In this document: one piece after another, positions 46,971-56,465 of the stretch
How the letters are laid out: every line of letters starts with the position of its first letter
Numbering within the stretch: the first letter of the stretch is position 1
Made by a program: the position numbers and the translations under genes
Notes under the pieces: generated by a model
The model's input: the letters and a program-made list of their open reading frames with translations, nothing else
Databases searched by the model: none
Told to the model about the DNA's origin: nothing
Assembly (NCBI RefSeq): GCF_016595525.1
Contig: NZ_JAENII010000005.1
Location: 1 to 64,000 of the forward strand
Direction of reading: 5' to 3'
DNA: 64,000 bases
Source: Haloferula rosea
GTDB lineage: Bacteria; Verrucomicrobiota; Verrucomicrobiia; Verrucomicrobiales; Akkermansiaceae

Positions 46971-47660
46971 ATGGCTGCAAAAAAGAAGACCGCTAAGAAG
47001 GCGGTGAAGAAATCCACCGCCAAGAAGGTAGCCAAGAAGGCAGCCAAAAAAGCCCCCGCGAAGAAAGCTCCGGCCAAGAAGGCCCCCGCGAAGAAGGCCC
47101 CCGCCAAGAAAGCAGCGAAGAAGGCGCCCGCCAAGAAAGTGGCCGTGAAGAAGGTGGTGGCCAAGAAAGAGGAAGCCCCTGCAAAACCCGTCAAACTGAC
47201 CGCATTTGCCCTGAAACAACGTCAGCGTCTCCTCGATCTGCGCGATGAACTGGTGGATGCCATGTCCGGTGTGACCGGTGAAATCCGCAGCGCAGCCGAT
47301 GGCAGTGACGCTTCGGGCAGTGGGATGCACCAGGGAGACGCGGGAAGCGATGCCTATGACCGCGATTTCGCTCTGAGTGTGCTGGCCAAGGAGCAGGACG
47401 CCCTTTACGAGATCGAGCAGGCCCTGCGGCGGATCGAGCGCGGTGTTTACGGCGTTTGCGAGATGTCCGGAGCCAAGATTCCCCAAGCGCGCCTCGAGGC
47501 CATTCCATTCGCCCGCCTGACCGTCGATTGTCAGGAGAAATGGGAGAAGGAATACGGCAATCAGCGCTTCCGACTGCCCAGCGAAGTGGGCTTCAGCAAT
47601 GGCCGTCTGACCGATGATGAAGAATCTGGTCCGGTTTCGCTTGACGGCTCCGACGATTGA
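46971..47660 (+). CDS. DksA/TraR-family protein with an N-terminal histone-H1-like tail
   Basis: A 229-residue fusion. Residues 1-75 are almost only Lys, Ala, Pro and Val in KKAPAKKAPA-type repeats, like bacterial histone-H1 mimics, and would bind DNA non-specifically. Residues 76-215 resemble DksA: a coiled coil (LKQRQRLLDLRDELV, LEIEQALRRIERG) and the zinc-finger region with Cys163, Ser166, Thr184 and Cys187. Two of the four usual cysteines are therefore missing. DksA proteins act at the RNA polymerase secondary channel. It is followed 37 bp later by rpmG-rpsR. Confidence 0.85.
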   Translation: MAAKKKTAKKAVKKSTAKKVAKKAAKKAPAKKAPAKKAPAKKAPAKKAAKKAPAKKVAVKKVVAKKEEAPAKPVKLTAFALKQRQRLLDLRDELVDAMSGVTGEIRSAADGSDASGSGMHQGDAGSDAYDRDFALSVLAKEQDALYEIEQALRRIERGVYGVCEMSGAKIPQARLEAIPFARLTVDCQEKWEKEYGNQRFRLPSEVGFSNGRLTDDEESGPVSLDGSDD

Positions 47661-54284: not shown

Positions 54285-54359
54285 TGGTGCGCGATACTGG
54301 GATCGAACCAGTGACCCCCTCCGTGTCAGGGAGGTGCTCTACCGCTGAGCTAACCGCGC
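54285..54359 (-). tRNA. tRNA-Val (anticodon GAC)
   Basis: Reading the minus strand, the cloverleaf starts GCGCGGTTAGCTCAG at 54359, with anticodon stem CCTCC/GGAGG and loop CTGACAC, giving anticodon GAC (valine). The T-arm GGTTCGATCC and the acceptor end follow, with the discriminator and CCA encoded at 54285-54288. The acceptor stem pairs with one G-T wobble. It lies between the SirB1-like gene and the histone-tailed repressor. Confidence 0.95.
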
Positions 54360-54503: not shown

Positions 54504-54537
54504 AAAAAGAGGCGGAGGAACTGGTCCTCCGCCTCTT
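54504..54537 (-). terminator. Rho-independent terminator of the histone-tailed repressor gene
   Basis: AAGAGGCGGAGGA (54507-54519) pairs perfectly with TCCTCCGCCTCTT (54525-54537) over a 5-base loop, and on the minus strand it runs into TTTTTC. It lies about 70 bp after the stop codon. Confidence 0.85.
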
Positions 54538-54605: not shown

Positions 54606-55361
54606 TTACTTGCGGCGCGCGCGCTTCTTGGTCGCCTTCTTGGCGGACTTTTTCTTCGCGACCTTTTTCTTCGAAGCTTTCTTGGCGACCTTTTTCTTGG
54701 CTGCCTTCTTCTTCGACGCCTTCTTCGCTACCTTTTTCTTGGCGGCTTTCTTGGCTGCCTTTTTCTTGGTAGCCTTCTTGGCTGACTTCTTCTTGGCGGC
54801 TTTCTTTGCCGTCTTTTTCTTCGTCGCCTTCTTCGCTACCTTTTTCTTGGCGGCTTTCTTGGCTACCTTCTTCTTGGTGGCCTTCTTGGCGGACTTTTTC
54901 TTCGCGACCTTTTTACGGGTCACCTTTTTGGCGGCGCGTTTCACGGATTTTTTCCGTGCGGCCTTCTTGGTGGATTTCTTTGCAGCCATGGCTTTGTGTC
55001 GTTTGAGTTCGCGTTCGATGTTTGATTTCTCTTCCGGTGTGAGATTGCCGGCGGAGAGGAGTGCGAGGATCGCCTCAGCCAGGCGGCCCCCGAAAGCGTT
55101 GGTCAGGAAATCGGATGTCGCCTTGCCAGCGATCTCTTCCTGGGAGTGTGATGCTTCGTAGACGTGTGCCCGTCCGAACCGTGTCCGCTTGACGAGCTTC
55201 TTTCGTTCGAGGCTCTGCATCACCGAGAGCACCGTGGTGTAGGCTCGGTCTTTGCCGTCGGGCAGTGCTTCTAGTACTGCGCCTACCGTGGATGGACCTT
55301 CGTGCCACAGCACGGAGAGTGCCTGTAGTTCGAGGTTGGAGGGTTGGGTTGCCTTGGCCAT
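54606..55361 (-). CDS. BlaI/CopY-type repressor fused to a histone-H1-like Lys/Ala tail
   Basis: A 251-residue fusion. Residues 1-120 are a penicillinase-repressor-type winged helix (LELQALSVLWHEGPSTVGAVL, RAYTTVLSVMQSLERKKLVKR) with the usual dimerisation helices. Residues 125-251 start at an internal Met (MAAKKSTKKAARKKS) and consist of Lys/Ala/Thr/Val repeats such as KKKVAKKATKKK, resembling chlamydial Hc2 and other bacterial H1-like proteins. No BlaR1 sensor is adjacent. A perfect inverted repeat just upstream suggests autoregulation. The internal ATG 54989 could also give a free histone-like product of 127 residues. Confidence 0.88.
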   Translation of the reverse strand: MAKATQPSNLELQALSVLWHEGPSTVGAVLEALPDGKDRAYTTVLSVMQSLERKKLVKRTRFGRAHVYEASHSQEEIAGKATSDFLTNAFGGRLAEAILALLSAGNLTPEEKSNIERELKRHKAMAAKKSTKKAARKKSVKRAAKKVTRKKVAKKKSAKKATKKKVAKKAAKKKVAKKATKKKTAKKAAKKKSAKKATKKKAAKKAAKKKVAKKASKKKAAKKKVAKKASKKKVAKKKSAKKATKKRARRK

Positions 55362-55367
55362 GAGGGG

Positions 55368-55385
55368 GTGTAATTCAAATTACAC
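55368..55385 (-). promoter_or_regulatory. Candidate BlaI-type operator upstream of the fused repressor
   Basis: GTGTAATT and AATTACAC form a perfect inverted repeat with a 2-bp centre (55368-55385), 7 bp upstream of the start codon. BlaI/CopY operators contain TACA/TGTA half-sites in dyads; here the TGTA and TACA orientation gives TGTAATT-N2-AATTACA. The position would block transcription or initiation. Confidence 0.6.
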
Positions 55386-55511
55386 GCATCATGAAGCTGA
55401 TAGTGGCATGTCGCGTCAAGAACAAATTCAGCTTTGTTAAGAAAACGAACCTCCGGTGTTAGTCCGGAATCCAATGAGGAAGCTCAAAGTACGATGTCTA
55501 TCGTAAAACGA

Positions 55512-56465
55512 TCAGTGGCCGTTACCGTCCACTTCGGGACGCTTGAAGCCGGGGGCGATGCCCTTGACTTCCGACCACAACGACGGGTCGGACGGATGTC
55601 CGTTGAAGCGGATGGTCCCGTCCAGTTCGACGAGGACCATGGTCGGTGCCGCCTGGATCCGAAGTGTCCGGGAGAGTGGGGATGTGTCGTGGTCGATCAG
55701 CCAGCTTCCCGTCAGTCCGGGAGTCGCTTCGAGGATGGCGCGGGTGTCGGCGATGGCCTCGGGCATGGATTCACCAATGATGGTGACGACCGCAATGCCC
55801 GCCTGTTCCAATGCTTTGGCACTCGCCGTGAAGTCCGGAAGACTTTCCTCACATTCGCGGCTCCAGGGAGAAAAGAAGTGGAGGAGGACGGCTTTCCGAT
55901 CCTTGGCCAGGGACTGCAGTAGCGCGGTCTCGCCGTTGAGGTCCTGCACGGAGAGGCTGAAGTCGACCTTCACCTTTTTCATGGCCTCTTCGAGACGGAG
56001 GCGTTCGATGTGTGGGGCGAAGGCGGCACCCTGTTGCGGGCTCAGCCAGAAAGCTTCGGTGATGTGCTTCTTGAAACCGTCGCGGTCCTTTTCTTCGAGG
56101 GCCTTGATCGCGCGGACGTATTCGAGGATGGCGAACCAGTCTTCCTCGACGGCAAAGATCTGGGATTCGGAGAGCTTGAAGTTTTTTGCCTGCGCCTCGA
56201 GTTCCGGAAGCATGGCGGCGAGCTTGTCATCCTCGCGTCGGTCGACGTGATAGAGGAAGCGTGCTTCGAGGATGGCCTGTTCGGTGGCACCCAGTTTCCG
56301 CGCTGCTTCGATGCGTTCGTCCAGCGCTCCGGGAGATTCCCGTTCCGAAAGCATGTCCTGCAGCGCCTGATCAAGCCTGCTCGGCAGCTGGGATTCGTCC
56401 TGCCCGAAGGCGGGAGCGACGAAGAATCCGGCAACGAGCAGGCTGATCAGAAGGGGGCGTCGCAT
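55512..56465 (-). CDS. Exported thioredoxin-fold (TlpA-like) protein with a single active-site Cys
   Basis: The 317-residue protein has a signal peptide (MRRPLLISLLVAGFFVAPAFG), then about 160 residues of helical sequence (LPELEAQAKNFKLSESQIF). A TlpA/redoxin domain follows from about 165, with AVLLHFFSPWSRECEESLPDF and ITIIGESM-type strands. The motif is W-S-R-E-C, so the first Cys of WCxxC is Ser and only the resolving Cys remains. The tail has LRIQAAPTMVLVELDG. It may act as a redox chaperone rather than an oxidoreductase. It is next to a LysM lipoprotein gene. Confidence 0.75.
   Translation of the reverse strand: MRRPLLISLLVAGFFVAPAFGQDESQLPSRLDQALQDMLSERESPGALDERIEAARKLGATEQAILEARFLYHVDRREDDKLAAMLPELEAQAKNFKLSESQIFAVEEDWFAILEYVRAIKALEEKDRDGFKKHITEAFWLSPQQGAAFAPHIERLRLEEAMKKVKVDFSLSVQDLNGETALLQSLAKDRKAVLLHFFSPWSRECEESLPDFTASAKALEQAGIAVVTIIGESMPEAIADTRAILEATPGLTGSWLIDHDTSPLSRTLRIQAAPTMVLVELDGTIRFNGHPSDPSLWSEVKGIAPGFKRPEVDGNGH

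Follow-up and report, generated by a model that had tools for sequence, protein, structure and literature searches.

A protein in which a BlaI-type winged-helix repressor is joined to a lysine-rich, histone-H1-like tail was found to be encoded in the window (the whole stretch of 64,000 nucleotides of Haloferula rosea DNA that was analysed). The pairing, conserved in a large part of the bacterial family, suggests a regulator that binds the chromosome and not the usual switch for sensing antibiotics. At a probability of roughly one half, the protein would be a stand-alone, BlaR1-independent, tail-assisted and site-specific chromosomal regulator, convergent with linker histone H1 and not a beta-lactam switch. 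The parts are of known kinds and it is the combination of winged-helix repressor and K-rich tail which is new. No description of a BlaI or penicillinase repressor with a histone-like or lysine-rich tail was present among the open-licence papers listed, and as far as those papers go the initial annotation was right that the fusion seems undescribed. One paper considered as an earlier description of a winged helix in an H1-like layout (PMC4989314) was set aside, its subject being, in the portion available, chlamydial transcription factors.

Architecture and nearest families

The gene and the two parts of its product are positioned as follows.
54606..55361, minus strand: tailed BlaI-type regulator gene (open reading frame of 251 aa plus stop, ATG start)
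54996..55361, minus strand: winged-helix and C-terminal helical domain, residues 1-122 (Pfam, AlphaFold2, Foldseek)
54609..54989, minus strand: histone-H1-like K-rich tail, residues 125-251 (127 aa), with zero D/E (sequence)

The gene had been annotated as a BlaI-type winged helix fused to a 127-residue histone-like tail, and both the open reading frame and the Pfam search bear this out. Residues 8-120 of the 251-aa protein match PF03965 with 82 bits (cut-off 22.6), and the tail is composed almost entirely of Lys, Ala, Val, Thr, Ser and Arg. The single-chain AlphaFold2 model has a mean pLDDT of 66.2 and a pTM of 0.40, the latter being low because of the tail. The domain (residues 1-122) has pLDDT values of 66-96 per ten-residue block and its C-terminal helices are present in the model, and the tail is mostly below 50 from residue 148 onward. 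The top 13 Foldseek matches are all MecI, BlaI or Rv1846c (best TM-score by target 0.81), which places the domain in the BlaI/MecI fold; the best matches, MecI and BlaI, include the DNA complexes 1sax, 2d45 and 1xsd at an identity of 16-17%. The nearest solved relative is Rv1846c (2g9w, E 3.3e-12) by sequence and MecI/BlaI by fold.

The protein shares its winged helix and C-terminal helices with the BlaI/MecI repressors (S. aureus 1sd4 and 1okr; M. tuberculosis Rv1846c 2g9w), but it alone carries a 127-residue K-rich tail and it has no adjoining BlaR1. The cleavage pair of S. aureus BlaI has been reported as Asn101-Phe102 (PMC9834060), whereas the aligned residues of the window protein are A100-L101, a weak comparison in that the genome's own BlaR1-paired paralog is also without the Asn-Phe pair. 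The CopY/TcrY copper repressors belong to the same superfamily, but the TIGR02698 match of 39.3 bits is far below the cut-off of 121.95, and the CxC metal motif described for them (PMC7253601) does not occur in the window protein, which has no Cys in its 251 residues.

With regard to layout, the protein is similar to eukaryotic linker histone H1, which consists of a winged helix and disordered tails (PMC6615755), in that a winged helix is followed by a long, disordered, K/A/P-rich tail. However, the domain is of BlaI type and not GH1, and no linker-histone family was detected in the protein by Pfam at E 0.01. The H1 resemblance is a case of convergence, not homology, and is an argument about how the protein works, not about membership. 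Lysine/alanine-rich tails are also a feature of AlgP and PhaF of Pseudomonas, Hc1/Hc2 of Chlamydia and the K-tailed HU proteins HupB/HupS. To our knowledge, the remainder of PhaF, Hc1/Hc2 and HupB/HupS contains no BlaI-type winged helix. TrmBL2 is a member of the archaeal TrmB family for which we know of no K-rich tail. The likeness of TrmBL2 of Thermococcus to the window protein is that of a transcription-factor-type protein serving as a chromosomal protein (PMC7325993). The remainder of AlgP, in the available part of its description, also holds no BlaI-type winged helix (PMC9239181).

Distribution, gene neighbourhood and upstream region

PF03965 matches were found in all of the 18 genus genomes compared (the window's own among them), each of which has one K-tailed ortholog. 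The 17 orthologs in the other genus genomes have a domain which is 80-90% identical to that of the window protein, and a K-rich tail is present in 17/17. In a sample of the family, matches were obtained in 71/117 genomes (E 1e-8) and orthologs in 65/117, one per genome and in 8/16 genera, the ortholog threshold being 47% identity (L044, L110 and L111, at <40% identity, are outside the ortholog counts). No ortholog was found in family genus g3 among the matches listed. Named relatives among the best 80 of 155 are Haloferula, Luteolibacter, Roseibacillus, Akkermansiaceae or Verrucomicrobia records; several records bear the name Akkermansia muciniphila or Prosthecobacter debontii, bin labels which may be wrong but which preclude a firm claim of absence from Akkermansia. 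Over the genus and family collections, 118 distinct orthologs were obtained (window's own counted), of which 99 have a frame uncut by a contig end.

Three features adjoin the gene.
55512..56465, minus strand: TlpA/AhpC-TSA-like thioredoxin-fold gene, the usual upstream neighbour (Pfam)
54285..54359, minus strand: tRNA-Val(GAC), a frequent downstream neighbour
54507..54537, minus strand: Rho-independent terminator hairpin ~70 nt past the stop codon (13-bp stem, then U-run)

BlaR1 was found beside 0/118 distinct ortholog loci when searched for by tblastn with the genome's own BlaR1 as query (E 1e-3), flank lengths varying and some loci stopping at contig ends, and the same query found it beside 17/17 untailed paralog loci, which had been drawn from the 40 further matches to PF03965 in the genus. 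This agrees with the initial annotation, according to which the gene has no BlaR1 partner. That annotation had also raised the question of a BlaR1 elsewhere in the genome; a single M56 (BlaR1-like) match was found in the whole genome at E 0.01, on contig C33, where it directly follows the genome's other PF03965 gene, which is untailed. The TlpA-like gene immediately precedes the ortholog, in the same orientation, in 95/116 distinct ortholog loci with enough flank, tRNA-Val is downstream on the same strand within 450 bp in 52/94 such loci, and a transglutaminase-like neighbour gene was identified in 31/71 distinct ortholog loci. The strong terminator that had been noted after the gene is the hairpin given above, with a folding energy of -27.7 kcal/mol (z -5.06); it is missing from the list of the consensus scan.

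The region ahead of the start codon contains a promoter-like block and a dyad.
55414..55419, minus strand: -35-like TTGACG (upstream alignment of orthologs)
55391..55396, minus strand: hexamer CTTCAT in the -10 position, 17 bp after TTGACG (upstream alignment)
55368..55385, no strand: perfect dyad GTGTAATT-CA-AATTACAC, candidate operator (8-bp arms, 6 bp before the start codon)

A perfect, autoregulatory dyad 7 bp before the start codon had been proposed. The dyad does exist, at a spacing of 6 bp, and is the sole copy in the genome at up to 2 mismatches (one other site has 3). Of 4000 dinucleotide-shuffled versions of the 110 bp upstream, 46 held an inverted repeat (arms of at least 8, spacer of up to 10), so that chance would yield such a dyad at about the 1% level, which is mildly unlikely. 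It is absent from the 116 other ortholog upstream regions, with just one lone half-site (L064), and for this reason was rejected as a conserved family operator; seen only in the window's species, it is a candidate operator there. The operator motif of BlaI/MecI has been given as a TACA/TGTA inverted repeat, TACANNTGTA (PMC7253601). The dyad has TGTA and then TACA, 8 bp apart, which is the reverse order of that motif and was not found in the 116 other orthologs. Inverted repeats were more numerous in the 117 upstream regions than expected from shuffles (68 observed vs. 35.4 for arms of at least 6, 33/117 vs. 10.8 for arms of at least 7, and 12/117 vs. 3.0 for arms of at least 8). This excess was rejected as a sign of a common operator: the sequences are related, the repeats differ and a shared sequence is absent. 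At L036 a perfect 11-bp inverted repeat is located round the -35.

TTGAC is found 40-85 bp ahead of the start codon in 87/117 ortholog upstream regions, and TTGACG in 74/117. The hexamer CTTCAT is a weak match to the sigma-70 -10 and was not called by the consensus scan. On the alignment, read by eye, CTTTAT occupies the -10 position in 11/18 genus members, and in 18/18 a CTTTAT-like hexamer stands at a fixed distance after TTGAC, the hexamer being preceded by GAACTACTAG in part of the genus. The block GAACTACTAGCTTTATGGTG was identified ahead of the tailed gene in 12/18 genomes at up to 3 mismatches (a control pattern gave 10 matches in the 18 genomes); in the window genome the block has diverged and no match was found. 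All four other matches have 3 mismatches and lie inside long open frames, on which ground a regulon defined by block matches was rejected. Outside coding frames the recurrent block was found only ahead of the tailed gene, and the search found no target other than a possible self-site. Where it is present (10 genomes), the exact pattern TTGACN{7,10}ACTACTAG is found a single time per genome, always before the tailed gene.

Between the -35 and the -10, AACTA-C-TAGTT is perfect in 18/117 upstream regions and TACTAG alone is present in 47, so that one arm is kept better; its outer pairs do not covary on the alignment as read by eye. As an operator it is a lead, as is TGGTG-N-CACCA, which lies just past the -10 in part of the genus. 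In Clostridium thermocellum, the regulons of two BlaI regulators have been reported as very small, with GTCTAT/GACTAT as half-sites and with evidence that the regulators control their own genes (PMC8457756), which makes it plausible that the tailed protein could regulate its own gene through an ACTA-type site.

These observations lend themselves to a narrower reading, in which the protein is a local repressor that acts mainly on its own gene and on few others if any, the tail serving just to speed the search and tighten binding, with no nucleoid-scale role. The restriction of the block and of the exact pattern to the tailed gene speaks for such a repressor, as do the small regulons in C. thermocellum, where the half-sites are near the ACTA core seen here. 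However, the block may be plain promoter conservation, and domain constraint over many genera together with tails of up to 178 residues exceeds the apparent need of one promoter. We regard local repression as possible but doubtful, and prefer a chromosomal regulator whose tail assists site-specific binding.

Constraint on the domain and the tail

A phylum search matched 24/387 sampled genomes at E 1e-18 (up to 11 candidates scored per genome). The 13 relatives found in 9 genomes outside the family are all without a K-rich tail, as is one match in family genus g14. L042 and L043, which were unmatched by the domain query, are untailed on reading, and among the 40 further matches to PF03965 in the genus, the 21 that were read showed no K-rich tail. 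A tree was built from 61 domain rows, with 29 of the 118 distinct tailed rows and without L111 (= L146) and L044; in it the 29 tailed rows are on one side of a branch and the 32 untailed on the other (SH-aLRT 99, quick method). As far as these sequences go the tree fits one gain of the tail, gain and loss not being separable by it.

The mean domain identity over seven genomes is 86.5% for the tailed protein vs. 76.2% for the BlaR1-paired paralog, and is higher in 21/21 pairs. In the 18 genomes, 15/17 positions are invariant in residues 38-54 round the recognition helix, 24/30 in residues 7-36 and 5/20 in residues 71-90. The tailed gene behaves as a vertically inherited gene, more constrained than the classic BlaI-BlaR1 pair. 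It might be supposed that the main partner of the tail is not DNA at all, being instead RNA, ribosomes or polyphosphate, or that the tail is a lysine-modification sensor which tunes the regulator; the KPAA-tailed AlgP joins polyphosphate granules (PMC9239181), and a DksA-like protein in the window also has a K-rich extension. However, the recognition-helix region is the most conserved part of the domain, so that DNA is the nearest polyanion, and a partner of another kind is judged improbable.

A K-rich tail is present in 64/65 family-sample orthologs (51 complete and 13 running off the contig end), and the remaining one ends at the contig end ahead of the tail. Beyond position 122 the 99 uncut orthologs continue for 26 to 178 residues (median 130), with at least 70 in 91/99 and <50 in 7/99. 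Past this position there are no D/E in 92/99 and no F/W/Y/C in 99/99. Pooled from residue 126, the tails consist of K (43.5%), A (36.5%), V (6.6%) and P (6.5%). A common opening (M, A or P, optional A, KK) is seen in 90/99 uncut orthologs, and KSAKKA in 53/99. The composition of the tail is kept while its sequence drifts. It is highly improbable that the protein is an ordinary BlaI with a functionless tail arising by neutral low-complexity expansion; tail length and sequence do vary (short tails occurring in part of genus g10) and the repetitive DNA looks slippage-prone, but the tail has been kept almost throughout the family sample, nearly without acidic and wholly without aromatic residues, with a recurrent start and a composition held through sequence drift.

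Short tails were found in five genus g10 genomes (26-37 residues), in L184 (29) and in L091 (39, with D/E), and a long coating arm is therefore not always needed; genus g10 also has tails of 56 and 135 residues (L070, L071). The short-tailed g10 loci L073-L077 are in another neighbourhood, in which the window's neighbour genes and tRNA-Val were not found. These loci represent a natural tail-shortened comparison, and long-tailed and short-tailed orthologs together provide a natural comparison set. Nineteen of the 118 distinct ortholog frames leave the contig, 17 of these >30 residues into the tail, and the tail-encoding repeats seem to break assemblies (e.g., L078, L079, L082, L107). In L069 and L204 there is a run of N with a frame change after it.

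Proposed function

Judged from sequence, the protein is most likely a site-specific regulator whose tails would add non-specific DNA binding. The winged-helix domain is expected to dimerise, and the dimer would read specific operators through its recognition helix, which is nearly invariant. The two H1-like tails, which are disordered and strongly cationic, would bind flanking DNA non-specifically, which would raise affinity and residence time and possibly bridge or coat nearby DNA. The protein would then act as a chromosomal regulator of the nucleoid-associated type, with repression and autoregulation. The KPAA tails of AlgP and PhaF have been reported to bind DNA in vitro (PMC9239181). Three HU-family proteins, all untailed, are encoded in the genome itself, and these could provide basic nucleoid packing independently of the tailed BlaI protein, which would add to HU and not replace it.

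It has been stated in a review that bacterial linker-histone relatives are essentially sequence like the C-terminal tail of H1, the globular domain having been joined later, in eukaryotes (PMC6615755). A conserved bacterial winged helix with an H1-type tail is the H1 layout arrived at independently, and it opens to experiment the question of whether a local repressor can become a regulator of the chromatin type by gaining a basic tail. The stronger proposal, that much of the family has independently built an H1-like protein which would use specific operators as nucleation points for compact and silenced chromatin, is considered unlikely.

K-rich extensions were also noted on two other proteins, and such an appendage may therefore be of general use. 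The first, encoded at 46971-47660 of the window (plus strand), is a 229-aa protein with an N-terminal K-rich stretch and a DksA/TraR zinc-finger domain, and has an HC2 histone match of 19.9 bits, below the cut-off of 40. The second is encoded on contig C22 (L124, ~1485-1743) by a short frame which starts MGQQHRKVTKRNRRKK and has a K/A-rich tail at its end.
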